From the NCBI RefSeq assembly GCF_004403945.1, contig NZ_SOHM01000036.1, forward strand, positions 62,001 to 126,000: a DNA stretch of 64,000 bases, given 5' to 3'. Numbering within the stretch: position 1 is the stretch's first letter; each line of letters begins with the position of its first letter. A model generated the notes under the pieces. That model was given only the letters and a program-made list of their open reading frames with translations, was not told the origin of the DNA and did no database searches. The DNA comes from Cryobacterium lactosi. Its GTDB lineage: Bacteria > Actinomycetota > Actinomycetes > Actinomycetales > Microbacteriaceae. Of this stretch, positions 26,584-31,165 are shown piece after piece. A program made the position numbers and the translations under genes.

Positions 26584-27509
26584 GATGCCTCTCCCGTCCA
26601 GGTGGGCACAGCGCTGGTGGGGAAGTACCGTTGCCCGATCGACTCCGACGCGGTGCTGGTGGCGTCCTGCACCATGTCCATGTGCCCGGGCAGGTCGTTC
26701 AGGATCTCCATGATCGGCCGGTATTCCAACTGGCTACGGATCTGGCCGAGCACCCGCTGGGACGACTCCGAGACACCCAACCGGTCGGTGCGCGGTTCCA
26801 GCTCCTGCAGGCACTGCTCCGCCCGCGAGATCGAGAAGACGATCGACCGCGGGAACAGCCGGTCGAGCAGCAGGAATTCGGCAGCGTTCCGGGCCGAGGG
26901 CACCCCGCGGTAGGTGCGCAGATATGACTCGTACGCCCCGCAGGAGCGCAGGATGGTCGTCCAGGACGGCCCGCTGTTCTCGGTCAGCGACCGGGTGGCC
27001 AGCAGTCGCGCGGTCATGTCTGCCTGCTCGAGGCTGCGGCCCAACGTGAAGAAGTGCCAGGCGTCGTCCCGGCTGGCGCTGGACTCCACGATCCCCACAG
27101 CCAGGGCCGCGCGTTCGCGCACCCAGCCGAAGAAGTCGTGGGTCTTGGCGCTGGCGATGTTCTTGGGCATCTTCGTGTAGGTGGTGTTCAGGCACTCCCA
27201 CAGCTCGGTCGACACGATCTCCCTAGCCCGCCGGGCGTTCTCCCTGGCGGCGCCGAGCGAGTACGCGATCGAGGCCGGATGCGTGCGGTCCGCCGCCAGG
27301 GTCGCGAGCACGTCCTTGCGGGTCAGCTCACGGTTGGGCGGCACCGGGCTGCCCATCAGGTGCAGCAGGGACCGGCAGGCGAGGTTCTCCTCGATCCACG
27401 GGTCCTCCAGCAGCAGCTGCAGGTGCACGTCCAGGATGCGGGCAGTGCCGTCGCTGCGTTCGATGTAACGGCCGATCCAGAACAGGCTCTCGGCGATGCG
27501 GCTCAGCAT
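26580..27509 (-). CDS. Alpha-E domain protein (DUF403)
   Basis: A 309-residue all-helical protein. MLSRIAESLFWIGRYIERSD is the typical start of the alpha-E family, and DGTARILDVHLQLLLED follows. The repeated Trp/Arg/Glu-rich helices are conserved in the family, whose biochemical role is uncertain. It is almost always encoded with a circularly permuted ATP-grasp protein and a transglutaminase, as here. Its start lies 7 nt inside the ATP-grasp gene. Confidence 0.92.
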   Translation of the reverse strand: MLSRIAESLFWIGRYIERSDGTARILDVHLQLLLEDPWIEENLACRSLLHLMGSPVPPNRELTRKDVLATLAADRTHPASIAYSLGAARENARRAREIVSTELWECLNTTYTKMPKNIASAKTHDFFGWVRERAALAVGIVESSASRDDAWHFFTLGRSLEQADMTARLLATRSLTENSGPSWTTILRSCGAYESYLRTYRGVPSARNAAEFLLLDRLFPRSIVFSISRAEQCLQELEPRTDRLGVSESSQRVLGQIRSQLEYRPIMEILNDLPGHMDMVQDATSTASESIGQRYFPTSAVPTWTGEAS

Positions 27510-29188
27510 TCGAGGATCCTTTCGGCTGGAGTGATGGTGTGTTGCTGTTGCTGTTGCTGTTCTTGATCCTGGTCGCCTCCCGGCGGGGTGTCCTGCGGGG
27601 AGTGGTCGACGATCCGGGTCGGGATGATCGAGATGGACTGGGTGTTCGCGGCCTGGTCGTTGACGAGACCCTGGATGTTGCGGGCCGAACCGCCACCGGT
27701 GTTGAAGTCGGGCTCGAGCCCGATCACCCAGGTGTCCTTCGACCCACCGCCCTGGCTGGAGTTCACCACGAGCTCACCCTCAGGCAGGGCCACCCGGGTG
27801 AGGCCGCCCGGCAGCACCCAGACATCCGACCCGTCGTTCACCGCGAACGGACGGAGGTCCGCATGACGGGGACGCATCCCGTCGTCGACGAGGGTGGGGA
27901 TTGTCGACAGCTGCACCACCGGCTGGGCGATCCAGCCGCGCGGATCCTTGAGCAGCTGCAGCCGCAGGGTCTCCAGCTCCGCCTTGGACGCTGCCGGCCC
28001 CACCACGAGGCCCTTGCCGCCCGAGCCGTCGACGGGCTTGACAACGAGTTCGTCGAGCCTGTCGAGCACCTCCTCCAGCGCCAGCGGGTCTTCGAGCCGC
28101 CAGGTGTCCACGTTGGGGATGATCGCGTCCTCGCCGAGGTAGTACTTGATCAGGTCGGGCAGGTAGGTGTACACCAGCTTGTCGTCGGCGACGCCGTTGC
28201 CGACGGCGTTGGCGATGGTCACGTTGCCCAGGCGTGCGGCCATCAGGATGCCCGGCGACCCCAACTGGGAGTCGGCACGGAACTGCAGTGGGTCCAGGAA
28301 CTCGTCGTCGACCCTGCGGTAGATCACGTCGACCCGGGTCGGGCCCGCCGTGGTGCGCATCCAGACCCGGCCGCCGGAGCAGAACAGGTCGCGGCCCTCG
28401 ACGAGCTCGACGCCCATCAGCCGGGCCAGCAGGGTGTGCTCGAAGTAGGCGGAGTTGAAGACGCCGGGGGTGAGCACCACGATGTTGGGGTCGTCGACGC
28501 CGGCCGGGGCCGAGGCACGCAGGGCCTGCAACAGCTTGTTCGGGTAGTCGCCCACCGGGCGCACCCGCATCGAGACGAACAGTTCGGGCAGGGTCTGCGC
28601 CATCACGCGCCGGTTGGAGATGACGTAGCTGACCCCGCTGGGCACCCGCACGTTGTCTTCGAGCACCCGCCAGGCGCCCACCTCGTCGCGGATCAGGTCG
28701 ATGCCGGACACCTGGATCCGCACATTGTTCGCCGACGTGATGCCCGCGGCCTGACGGTGGAAGTGCTTGGACGAGGTGATCAGGCCGGCGGGAATGACGC
28801 CGTCTCGCACCGCGGCCTGCGGGCCGTAGATGTCTGCCAGGAAGGCCTCCAGCGCGAGGACTCGCTGCTTGATGCCGGCCTCCACGTTCACCCATTCCGG
28901 CTGCTCGATCACCCGGGGCACGGCGTCGAGCGGGAACGGCCGCTCCTCGCCGGCGAAGTCGAACGTCACTCCCTGGGCCAGGTAGGAGCTGGCCAGGGCG
29001 TCGGTGCGCCCGCGCAGTTCCTCCTGGGTCATGCGGGCGAGCGCGTTGTAAACGTCCTTGTATGCCGCCCGGGTTTCCGTGGGCGAGAGCGACGACGGAT
29101 CCGGGAACATCTCGTCCCAGGCCGAAGTCGCGCCTCGCTCGCGGGGCGGTGCGGAGGTAGCGCCATAGCCACTGAAGAGGTCAACCAT
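27503..29188 (-). CDS. Circularly permuted ATP-grasp protein (DUF404/DUF407)
   Basis: A 561-residue enzyme expected to form an amide or peptide bond using ATP. Family blocks include GVTFDFAGEERPFPLD, VLEDNVRVPSGVSYVISNR, VVLTPGVFNSAYFEH and VVKPVDGSGGKGLVVGP, a glycine-rich ATP loop. The final 25 residues are Gln-rich (QDQEQQQQQQ), encoded by a short trinucleotide tract at about 27538-27562. It is the first gene of the operon with alpha-E and transglutaminase. Comparative studies have proposed that such operons make or modify a small peptide. Confidence 0.92.
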   Translation of the reverse strand: MVDLFSGYGATSAPPRERGATSAWDEMFPDPSSLSPTETRAAYKDVYNALARMTQEELRGRTDALASSYLAQGVTFDFAGEERPFPLDAVPRVIEQPEWVNVEAGIKQRVLALEAFLADIYGPQAAVRDGVIPAGLITSSKHFHRQAAGITSANNVRIQVSGIDLIRDEVGAWRVLEDNVRVPSGVSYVISNRRVMAQTLPELFVSMRVRPVGDYPNKLLQALRASAPAGVDDPNIVVLTPGVFNSAYFEHTLLARLMGVELVEGRDLFCSGGRVWMRTTAGPTRVDVIYRRVDDEFLDPLQFRADSQLGSPGILMAARLGNVTIANAVGNGVADDKLVYTYLPDLIKYYLGEDAIIPNVDTWRLEDPLALEEVLDRLDELVVKPVDGSGGKGLVVGPAASKAELETLRLQLLKDPRGWIAQPVVQLSTIPTLVDDGMRPRHADLRPFAVNDGSDVWVLPGGLTRVALPEGELVVNSSQGGGSKDTWVIGLEPDFNTGGGSARNIQGLVNDQAANTQSISIIPTRIVDHSPQDTPPGGDQDQEQQQQQQHTITPAERILEC

Positions 29189-29464
29189 GACTGGATGCTA
29201 GTCGCCCGGTGTTGCCGTTTTGTTTCCTGCTTGCGGCGCGTCCGGTGGTTCATCCCGGGTGCCCCGCCGCGCGCCGGACCGACCCATCTGTCGTCCCCAC
29301 CGTGCAATATGCATACACAATCATGTGAACAAGCGAGCCGTGCCCTGCAGATCTCCCGAAATCGGTGACAGACTGCGGCTTTTTTGCATACAGTTAGCAA
29401 AAGTCCGATTCTCTGCCGCACACGTCAGTTCACGTTCGGCCGCACCAACAAGATCCGAGCACTC

Positions 29465-31165
29465 ATGCGCGCTGTTGTATGGCCCCGATGGTTGGGGCTG
29501 CTGATCCTGCTGTCCCTGGTGGCCTGCCCAGTGATCATCACGTGGTCGCTGGCCGGACCCGACACCGCATTGCTGGGCTCGCTCTCGGAGCGACTGCCGT
29601 TTGCCGCGGCGGGCACCGTGGTTGCACCGATCCTGTCCGGTCTTCTGGGCGTGGGTTCAGGCCTGTTGGTCACGCGGCGCCGTGGCTGGGCCGACCAGCG
29701 GTTTCGTGCGCTGATTCTTGCCGGGGGCGCCGTATGCCTGCTCTGGTTGACGCTCGTGAGTGTCTTCTGGTTTGCGGTGCAGGGTGAGATCCTGCCGTTA
29801 CTGGCCGATGAGCCGGCTGCCCACGCCGGACTGGACACGCTGAACACCCTCCTCATTCCGTCCACCATCGCGGTGTTCGGCGGCGCGGTCGCCGTCGCCG
29901 TGCACGTCAGGGCGGCGACGCGGATCATGGTCACCGAGGGGCACGTGCAAACCGCCCGCAGTCGGGGGCTGCCCACCACCTGGCCGATCCTTCGCCGGGT
30001 GATCCGCCGCACGCTACCCGCAATCGTGGCCGTCCAGCTCGTCGAGTTCCTCGTGTTCTACGGTGGCTCGCTGACTGTCCAGGCCGCACTCGCCACACCG
30101 CTCCCGGCCGCCGACCTGCCCCCGCTGCTCCCCGCCGAAAGTCTGCCCATAGTGCTCGGGAGCATCCTGCTCGGCGCCGTCGGCTTCGTGATGGCCGGTG
30201 TCGCCCTCGCAACGAGCACCCCGGCACCCGTCGTCGACACGCTGCGGCGGACTTCGGCTGCGGACAGCGGGCTCGCCGCCCTGCTCGCCGTACCGGGAAT
30301 CACCTCACCACGGCCCAGCCCTCCCCGGCCCAGCCTCACCAAGCCCACCCTGGCCTCCACAGGTTTCCGGGCCGCTGATTTCCTCGACATCCGCGACCTG
30401 CGCACCCGCACGACCGGGGAAGGACTGCAGCGGGAGCCTCTGGACGGCGTCAGCCTCACGCTGCCGCGTGGGCAGACCCTTGCGGTCATCGGCGACGACC
30501 CGGACGGCACCTCGTTGCTCTGCCAGTCCATCGCCGGAATGCAGCACTTGAGGCACACCGCAATGTCAGGGTCTATCCTCTTCGACGGCATCGAACTCGT
30601 CGGGCTGCCAGAGCGGGACTTCCGGCACCTGCGTGGGCAGCGCATCGGGTTCCTGCCCGCGCCGGCTGCCGACCACTTCGACCCGAACGCCCGCATCGGG
30701 CAGCACCTCGTGACGCTGGTCACCCGCCGGACCGAAACGCCCCGATCCCAAGCCCGCTCGGCTGCCCTGGCGCTGATGGCCCAGGTCGGTCTCGACGATG
30801 CGGAGAAGGTGTTCGCGGCCTACCCCGGTGAGACGCCGACGGCGACCTGCCAGCGAGTGCTGCTCGCCGGTGCGCTGGTCGGCGGGCCGCAACTGGTCGT
30901 CGCCGACGATCCCACCAGGGGCTTCACCGCCGGTGATGAGGCAGAATTCCTCGACCTGCTGCACTCGCTGCAACAGGAGCGCGGCTTCACCCTCATCATC
31001 GTGTCCCCGAGGGTGGAGATCGCCGTACGATGCGACCGGGTCGCGATCATGAGCCATGGCGCCATCGTGGAATACGCGTCGGTTCCGGAGCTGCTGACCG
31101 CGCCCCAGCATCCGCACACCCAGCGGCTGGTCGCACGGGGCGCGCCGGAATCCAACGGCCCCTGA
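29465..31165 (+). CDS. Peptide-transport permease fused to a degenerate ABC ATPase
   Basis: A 566-residue fusion. Residues 1-285 are membrane-embedded and DppB-like, with VQTARSRGLPTTWPILRRVI matching the cytoplasmic EAA loop of dipeptide permeases. Residues from about 305 follow OppD/DppD closely, but each catalytic motif is altered. Walker A is GDDPDGTS (343-350, Lys lost), the Q-loop site reads FLPAP, the signature is replaced by PGETPTATCQR (about 454-464), Walker B is VVADDPT (Glu to Asp), and the H-loop is IVSPRV (His lost). The reading frame is intact, so this is a maintained pseudo-ATPase, not a decayed gene. The ATG at 29465 is my choice; a TTG at 29384 would extend it. No binding protein is nearby. 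Confidence 0.8.
   Translation: MRAVVWPRWLGLLILLSLVACPVIITWSLAGPDTALLGSLSERLPFAAAGTVVAPILSGLLGVGSGLLVTRRRGWADQRFRALILAGGAVCLLWLTLVSVFWFAVQGEILPLLADEPAAHAGLDTLNTLLIPSTIAVFGGAVAVAVHVRAATRIMVTEGHVQTARSRGLPTTWPILRRVIRRTLPAIVAVQLVEFLVFYGGSLTVQAALATPLPAADLPPLLPAESLPIVLGSILLGAVGFVMAGVALATSTPAPVVDTLRRTSAADSGLAALLAVPGITSPRPSPPRPSLTKPTLASTGFRAADFLDIRDLRTRTTGEGLQREPLDGVSLTLPRGQTLAVIGDDPDGTSLLCQSIAGMQHLRHTAMSGSILFDGIELVGLPERDFRHLRGQRIGFLPAPAADHFDPNARIGQHLVTLVTRRTETPRSQARSAALALMAQVGLDDAEKVFAAYPGETPTATCQRVLLAGALVGGPQLVVADDPTRGFTAGDEAEFLDLLHSLQQERGFTLIIVSPRVEIAVRCDRVAIMSHGAIVEYASVPELLTAPQHPHTQRLVARGAPESNGP

Follow-up and report, generated by a model that had tools for sequence, protein, structure and literature searches.

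A degenerate ABC nucleotide-binding domain retained across Cryobacterium and in some genomes fused to a DppB-like permease half: a putative pseudo-ATPase with a proposed binding role

The gene at positions 29465-31165 of the window, the 64,000-nucleotide stretch of Cryobacterium lactosi DNA analysed here, joins a DppB-like permease half to a nucleotide-binding domain (NBD) of the OppD/DppD type in which the catalytic motifs have been replaced. No part of ABC transporters is better conserved than the NBD. Relatives with such losses are found in most genomes of Cryobacterium, a genus of cold-living bacteria. We favor the explanation, with a probability of roughly 0.55, that the protein is a pseudo-ATPase: its ABC motor domain would have given up the use of ATP in the genus ancestor and been retained to bind something else. 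Our best reading of the product is a non-ATPase subunit for protein interaction that has been neofunctionalised; slow decay is the main rival.

The gene is open on the forward strand, as the initial annotation had it, and codes for 566 aa. Pfam matches to the product were BPD_transp_1 at residues 62-243 and ABC_tran at residues 326-484, both above the curated cut-off. The features of the gene and its surroundings are given below; replaced catalytic residues were assigned by comparison with functional relatives. G and L numbers are our handles for genomes and loci.

29310-29317, no strand: operator-like palindrome 1, TGCATACA, one of a pair found at GntR-linked loci
29385-29392, no strand: operator-like palindrome 2, TGCATACA, 75 bp from the first and ending 72 bp before the start codon
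29465-31165, + strand: whole gene, DppB-like permease half and putatively ATP-dead NBD, 566 aa, stop included
29465-30214, + strand: DppB-like permease half, residues 1-250, matching Pfam BPD_transp_1, with seven helices in a low-confidence model
29933-29974, + strand: EAA coupling-loop region, residues 157-170, TEGHVQTARSRGLP, among the better-conserved stretches of the permease
30215-30352, + strand: linker rich in Pro, Ser and Ala, block conservation 0.26-0.50
30353-31162, + strand: pseudo-NBD, residues 297-566, by ABC_tran match and fold match
30353-30370, + strand: new motif [PA]SxxFR, here ASTGFR, residues 297-302, preceding NBD strand 1
30491-30514, + strand: former Walker A, GDDPDGTS, with Lys replaced by T349
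30659-30661, + strand: former Q-loop Gln, now A399
30833-30847, + strand: former signature motif, TPTAT, residues 457-461
30908-30910, + strand: former Walker B catalytic Glu, now D482
31007-31009, + strand: former H-loop His, now P515
31217-31855, - strand: convergent FCD-type GntR protein, a candidate regulator (Pfam GntR 3e-19, FCD 2e-21)

The best NCBIfam matches of the permease half are the B-type permeases Opp2B, NikB and Opp1B. When four sequences were searched with an HMM built from six fused permease halves, the DppB-like gene 1 of G016 scored 63.6 bits and the DppC half of the same locus -5.7 bits; by these profile scores the permease half of the window is DppB-like, not DppC-like. 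The fused gene is a single open frame in all 11 genomes that carry it, and its linker differs in length among them without the frame ever being broken. Block conservation of the permease across these 11 genes is 0.84 at residues 1-12 and 61-72 and 0.80 at residues 157-168; of the remaining blocks up to residue 240, one reaches 0.78 and the others 0.60-0.73.

That every catalytic motif is replaced, the central claim of the initial annotation, was borne out by comparison with functional relatives: Walker A Lys is changed to Thr, Q-loop Gln to Ala, S-G-G of the signature to P-T-A (residues 458-460), Walker B Glu to Asp, which is a conservative change, and H-loop His to Pro. A search for homologues sharing these losses, proposed at the same time, found them common to the relatives. 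Walker A Lys and Q-loop Gln were each kept in 0/42 full-length pseudo-NBDs and in 30/30 functional references. The second signature Gly is likewise gone from all 42, and the first is kept in one of them (G052). The uniform loss of Lys, Gln and this second Gly goes beyond what chance would give. Walker B Glu was lost in 33 copies and kept in nine, and H-loop His was lost in 41 and kept in one. Counting six catalytic residues per copy, 32 of the 42 pseudo-NBDs keep none, nine keep one and a single copy (G056) keeps two; all six are kept in each of the 30 functional reference NBDs. We infer that the NBD of the window cannot bind ATP in the ABC fashion or drive transport. Annotation as an ABC ATP-binding protein, a Pfam ABC_tran match included, can cover proteins unable to use ATP in this way.

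Structure models agree with the earlier view that the OppD fold is kept. AlphaFold, given an alignment of 19 sequences of which five were full-length, modeled the NBD of the window mostly at pLDDT 72-95 and the permease half at about 42-67 per ten-residue block. The top VIA-align match of the NBD model was Mycobacterium tuberculosis DppD (8wd9_D; Z 33.1, rmsd 1.6 over 255 residues), a result that covers residues 304-566 only and barely tests the permease half. Foldseek placed Escherichia coli OppD (8z21_C, E 1.3e-22) first for the window model. For C. flavum, the model of the 319-aa stand-alone protein has a mean pLDDT of 82.4, with residues 18-52 below 50; the PSxxFR motif sits within this stretch, just before strand 1. 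Judging from this model, the PSxxFR segment probably lies in a disordered stretch ahead of the fold. Short linear motifs often occur in low-confidence stretches of models.

The 48 pseudo-NBDs (42 full-length, three shortened and three diverged syntenic copies) group as a single clade apart from 30 functional NBDs (100/100); nested within it, the 11 fused NBDs are a clade of their own (100/100). Since all copies belong to one clade with shared losses, the catalytic loss looks ancestral and single. The tree, together with the remnant of a DppC tail between both parts in G060, suggests two or more origins of the DppB-NBD architecture, one in the fused clade and another in G060. Horizontal acquisition is not needed to explain the family, the locus being syntenic and all copies falling in one clade.

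Relatives outside the genus were sought in two ways. The first search scored six candidates per genome in 398 genomes of 85 genera of the bacterial family to which Cryobacterium belongs, at least ten of these genomes being Cryobacterium. Among the matches listed, those from outside Cryobacterium score at most 306 bits and start at model position 7 or later, past PSxxFR; in each of the 12 whose sequences were read, Walker A, SGGM and ADEP are intact. A scan of 84,980 species, which used the new motif and one other peptide as probes and so misses degenerate NBDs with neither, confirmed 152 relatives and kept 80, of which 25 are degenerate and all titled Cryobacterium. Among the other kept loci, 52 of the 80 are intact by pattern and three are "mixed": Walker A is intact in them and the signature reads SGGL or SGGI. 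The PSxxFR motif, the loss of the Walker A Lys, the Q-loop Gln and SGG, and membership in a single clade were found together in the Cryobacterium pseudo-NBDs.

The pseudo-NBD occurs at the same site in 46 of 57 Cryobacterium genomes and the fusion is common to 11, so that we reject a sequencing error or a private pseudogene. The DppB-NBD fusion was found in G000, G007, G004, G024, G002, G023, G066, G062, G071, G040 and G052. G016 and G056 have DppB followed by a DppC-NBD fusion, and G060 has DppB, a DppC tail and the NBD joined in one frame. In G017, DppB carries a weaker DppC-tail match and the NBD lies in another frame. The NBD stands alone in 17 flavum-clade genomes, and alone next to the GntR gene in seven others (G044, G008, G058, G012, G064, G059 and G046). 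It is shortened in frame in G042, G065 and G019, which have lost about 50 residues that follow the hairpin and precede the C-terminal strands; these two elements are retained, as are the motif and the P-loop region. Four genomes (G045, G051, G041 and G005) have a diverged syntenic copy and a second copy elsewhere; those of G005 are truncated or frame-shifted, leaving only broken ones. The second copies in G045, G051 and G041 are a duplication of an ATP-dead gene, and at L075, L077 and L078 of these genomes the second copy outscores the syntenic one on the family model.

No permease was found at the locus in 31 of the 46 genomes with a pseudo-NBD, a count that includes L028 and L087, whose weak permease hits (E 0.0035 and 0.009, below 75 aa) lie away from the NBD gene and were treated as chance. 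By gene content, the permease part is dispensable, being fused as DppB-NBD in 11 genomes and absent in these 31. The gene itself is also dispensable, because nine of the 57 genomes (G047, G048, G054, G003, G055, G021, G006, G022 and G011) were without it at the locus and G005 has only its broken copies. G001 and G067, whose ramB matches are only 52% identical, stand outside the present and absent counts. Taken across dozens of species, the stages of DppB with DppC-NBD, DppB-NBD, NBD alone, NBD shortened in the middle and absence offer a natural series for how a motor domain becomes a pseudoenzyme and for what keeps a dead NBD alive.

Such a series could also be read as a relic in slow, genus-wide decay: a former GntR-regulated peptide importer that lost its motor first, is shedding its permease and is held by weak residual constraint with no present function. 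The signs of decay among the 57 genomes are nine without the gene, one broken (G005) and three shortened in frame (G042, G065 and G019), to which repeated loss of the permease can be added; in G011, which has lost the gene, one palindrome is still at the site. The initial annotation had named intact-motif homologues, with this copy decaying in relatives, as the outcome that would make it a pseudogene. The decay was seen in part, in the nine genomes without the gene and in G005; no copy with intact motifs was present among the 48 Cryobacterium pseudo-NBDs read.

Selection on the frame bears on this rival from both sides. Pairwise dN/dS (NG86 with Jukes-Cantor correction) was 0.12-0.54 for the NBD in 24 close pairs and 0.28-0.50 for the permease half in the fused clade. 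In the dN/dS test called for at the outset, the observed value was lower than all 300 values obtained by shuffling the same substitutions, in 20/20 comparisons (14 NBD, six permease); the weakest case was the permease half of G000-G007, with 0.50 against a lowest shuffle of 0.51. Functional NBD orthologues gave 0.012-0.079 in seven of the same species pairs (G062-G071, with 44% identity and not orthologous, was left out), so that the pseudo-NBD values are about 3 to 25 times higher. Nine neighbour genes of G000-G007 gave 0.02-0.10, also below the pseudo-NBD gene; an aspC value of 2.5 for L022-L064 was left out, aspC of G066 being split between frames. Therefore, the gene is under purifying selection, though a relaxed one, and clearly less constrained than a working NBD. 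The raised dN/dS relative to functional NBDs and neighbours speaks for slow decay. Against it stand the values below every shuffle and the frames that remain open through deep divergence. The earlier claim that the gene is maintained is supported on several grounds: relatives have open frames, dN/dS stays well under 1, and a palindrome pair is conserved upstream. As for the marks of a pseudogene, the frame of the window is not broken and dN/dS is not near 1 in those 20 comparisons. We consider slow decay, the strongest of the rivals, unlikely on balance.

Region by region, we compared conservation in 42 pseudo-NBDs and 30 functional NBDs, leaving out the three shortened and the three diverged syntenic copies. 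Conservation is lower in the pseudo-NBDs at Walker A (0.63 vs 0.91), the Q-loop (0.56 vs 0.73), the signature (0.59 vs 0.88), Walker B (0.73 vs 0.91) and the D-loop (0.49 vs 0.96). It is higher in strand 1 (0.83 vs 0.64), in the SGSILFxGxELVG hairpin (0.79 vs 0.67) and in the N-terminal motif (0.80 vs 0.26), the last value coming from columns 301-305 only, as functional NBDs are gapped at 297-300. Because the functional references span more genera than the pseudo-NBD set, their breadth accounts for part of the gain seen at the motif, though not for the drop at the catalytic motifs. We detected [PA]SxxFR in 48/48 pseudo-NBDs (Phe is Tyr in G060) and in 0/88 functional NBDs within the 75 residues before Walker A, using a short pattern with a positive control; the 88 were selected from 113 loci by their intact Walker A. 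In the mSNLdP stretch after the Q-loop, mSN is conserved in functional NBDs and lost in pseudo-NBDs; the residues of E. coli DppD that contact DppB presumably fall in this stretch. As far as sequence conservation can tell, constraint has moved off the catalytic motifs and onto the new PSxxFR segment. That PSxxFR and strand 1 are more conserved than in working NBDs speaks against slow decay. Because the parts that touch ATP and the permease were lost, and the new motif and a beta subdomain were kept, the gene looks like one for a binding protein.

The site has a recurrent layout, with ramB on one side, often an adjoining ATP-grasp/alpha-E/transglutaminase operon, often a convergent GntR gene, and then rplA, rplK and nusG. 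The names ramB, rplA, rplK, nusG, aspC and aceA were read off translations, and the names ATP-grasp, alpha-E, transglutaminase and GntR come from Pfam domain matches. Two copies of a palindrome with the consensus TGYATRCA lie upstream of the gene. The pair, 65-77 bp apart, was found at 26 of the 29 loci that have both a pseudo-NBD and a GntR neighbour (G016 and G065 have one palindrome, G019 none), a degree of retention that again argues against slow decay. An exact-pattern search with 60-75 bases between the copies found a direct pair in 11 of the 57 genomes and an inverted one in 13. In these 24 it occurs at one place per genome, always at the pseudo-NBD locus, and control patterns gave 0; exact patterns miss the form that the pair takes in G007 and G046. 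The TGCATACA pair of the window, 75 bp apart, unique in the genome and, next to an FCD-GntR gene, common to much of the genus, is a candidate looping operator. Among the 57 genomes searched, the pair is absent from the 17 of the flavum clade, which also lack the GntR neighbour, and no palindromes accompany the second copies of G045, G051 and G041; both absences count against the preferred reading. It is unlikely that the palindromes serve the divergent ATP-grasp operon, as G017 has the pair with no ATP-grasp gene at the site. G048 and G054 show the reverse, keeping ATP-grasp and GntR with neither palindrome; the pair therefore goes with the pseudo-transporter and not with the ATP-grasp operon. 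These associations suggest that the FCD-GntR protein may bind the palindromes and control the gene.

A receptor role was also raised in the initial annotation. In this view the protein would sit in the membrane as a receptor or sensor of transport, with peptide sensed by the permease half and the signal relayed by the dead NBD, for example to the GntR neighbour. The upstream palindromes and the FCD-GntR neighbour would fit such a role, as would a membrane half kept under purifying selection in the fused clade (permease dN/dS 0.28-0.50). We regard it as improbable: 31 of the 46 genomes with the NBD lack a permease at the locus, and the GntR neighbour is missing in the 17 genomes of the flavum clade, which do have the NBD.

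Each ATP site of an ABC transporter is built from two NBDs, one giving its Walker A and its partner the signature. Since both are lost from this chain, neither ATP site would be canonical with a partner NBD, and the one consensus composite site that an asymmetric transporter needs is not possible. An asymmetric importer, in which the fusion pairs with a functional ATPase, had been proposed in the initial annotation; despite the conserved coupling-loop region of the DppB-like half (0.80 in block 157-168) and the many intact Dpp/Opp-type NBDs of Cryobacterium genomes, we consider it very improbable, because neither site could form, mSN of mSNLdP is lost, the flanking genes are ATP-grasp and GntR and not DppC, DppF or a binding protein, 31 of 46 genomes have no permease beside the NBD and three NBDs have lost part of their middle in frame.

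ATP-driven asymmetry being unlikely and mSN being lost too, we read the protein as a non-ATPase adaptor. In the preferred reading, that of a pseudo-ATPase kept for binding, ATP use would have been lost in the Cryobacterium ancestor and the NBD retained while the permease was fused, trimmed or lost. PSxxFR and the beta subdomain may dock a partner protein, and the convergent FCD-GntR protein may control expression via the palindrome pair. In the lineage of the window the DppB-like half could act as the tether to the membrane, and through its conserved coupling loop it might also dock onto parts of intact Dpp/Opp importers. As a guess, we take subunits of the canonical peptide importers to be the likeliest partners; the adaptor would hold them back or sequester them. 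The full combination of an ABC motor domain converted within one genus into an adaptor recognised via the short linear motif PSxxFR, with its own GntR switch, a genome-unique double operator and transporter halves repeatedly shed or re-fused while the adaptor stayed, is tentative, and we would put it at somewhat less than even odds.

The OppD/DppD-type ATPases M. tuberculosis DppD (8wd9), E. coli OppD (8z21) and DppD (8z1w) have the same fold as the pseudo-NBD over 255-264 residues at 23-30% identity; in the pseudo-NBD the ATP-binding and hydrolysis motifs are replaced and an N-terminal motif is new. Its match to DppD stops near DppD residue 265, before the Fe-S cysteines at 284-315 described in PMC12136057. 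According to the same paper, DppB contacts DppD in E. coli and both ATPases carry ATP-binding and hydrolysis motifs (PMC12136057). The window likewise ties a DppB-like half to a DppD-like NBD. In contrast to E. coli DppABCDF, the fused gene has no adjoining second NBD, DppC or binding-protein gene; a DppF gene is also absent beside it, its flanks being ATP-grasp and GntR genes. The review PMC7756269 describes the composite ATP site of ABC proteins as shared by two NBDs, and heterodimeric or full-length ABC proteins with a degenerate site as having changes in the signature and Walker B, being retained in evolution and presumed to have a new role; one consensus site per pair remains in these, and several degenerate sites still hold ATP (PMC7756269). 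The signature and Walker B changes of the pseudo-NBD are similar, but here the Walker A Lys, the Q-loop Gln and the signature are lost in one polypeptide, often with no permease. DppC-DppD fusions have the same order, with the permease N-terminal to a DppD-type NBD. Intact ones occur at L095, in the window's own genome, and at L035, and G016 and G056 have the same architecture with a dead NBD; the window differs in that its fused half is DppB-like and its NBD dead. Neither a stand-alone or permease-fused NBD family with these losses nor the pseudo-NBD locus in Cryobacterium was found described in the open-licence literature, and within that scope the earlier remark that no such family is described stands.

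Several loci have features of their own. Flavum-clade loci (L026, L029, L032 and others) have no GntR gene and no ATP-grasp operon, and seven loci of this clade share a different conserved upstream element around AAACAAACCGGTACG. An operon with a downstream aldehyde dehydrogenase was considered for this clade and rejected, as the spacing varies and the enzyme is not always the same. In G042 (L197, 9387-11561) ATP-grasp and transglutaminase match in fragments only, and the alpha-E gene between them matches in full; from these fragmentary matches the ATP-grasp operon seems to be decaying there too. In G066 (L064, 1378-2574 and 8385-9997) and G045 (L212, 255-1737 and 3755-5360), conserved neighbours (aspC, ATP-grasp and ramB) lie in separate pieces, apparently split between frames, perhaps because of indel errors in these assemblies. 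In the window itself, the ATP-grasp protein encoded at 27503-29188 has a stretch rich in Gln, QDQEQQQQQQQH, towards its C-terminus and near the overlap with the alpha-E gene.
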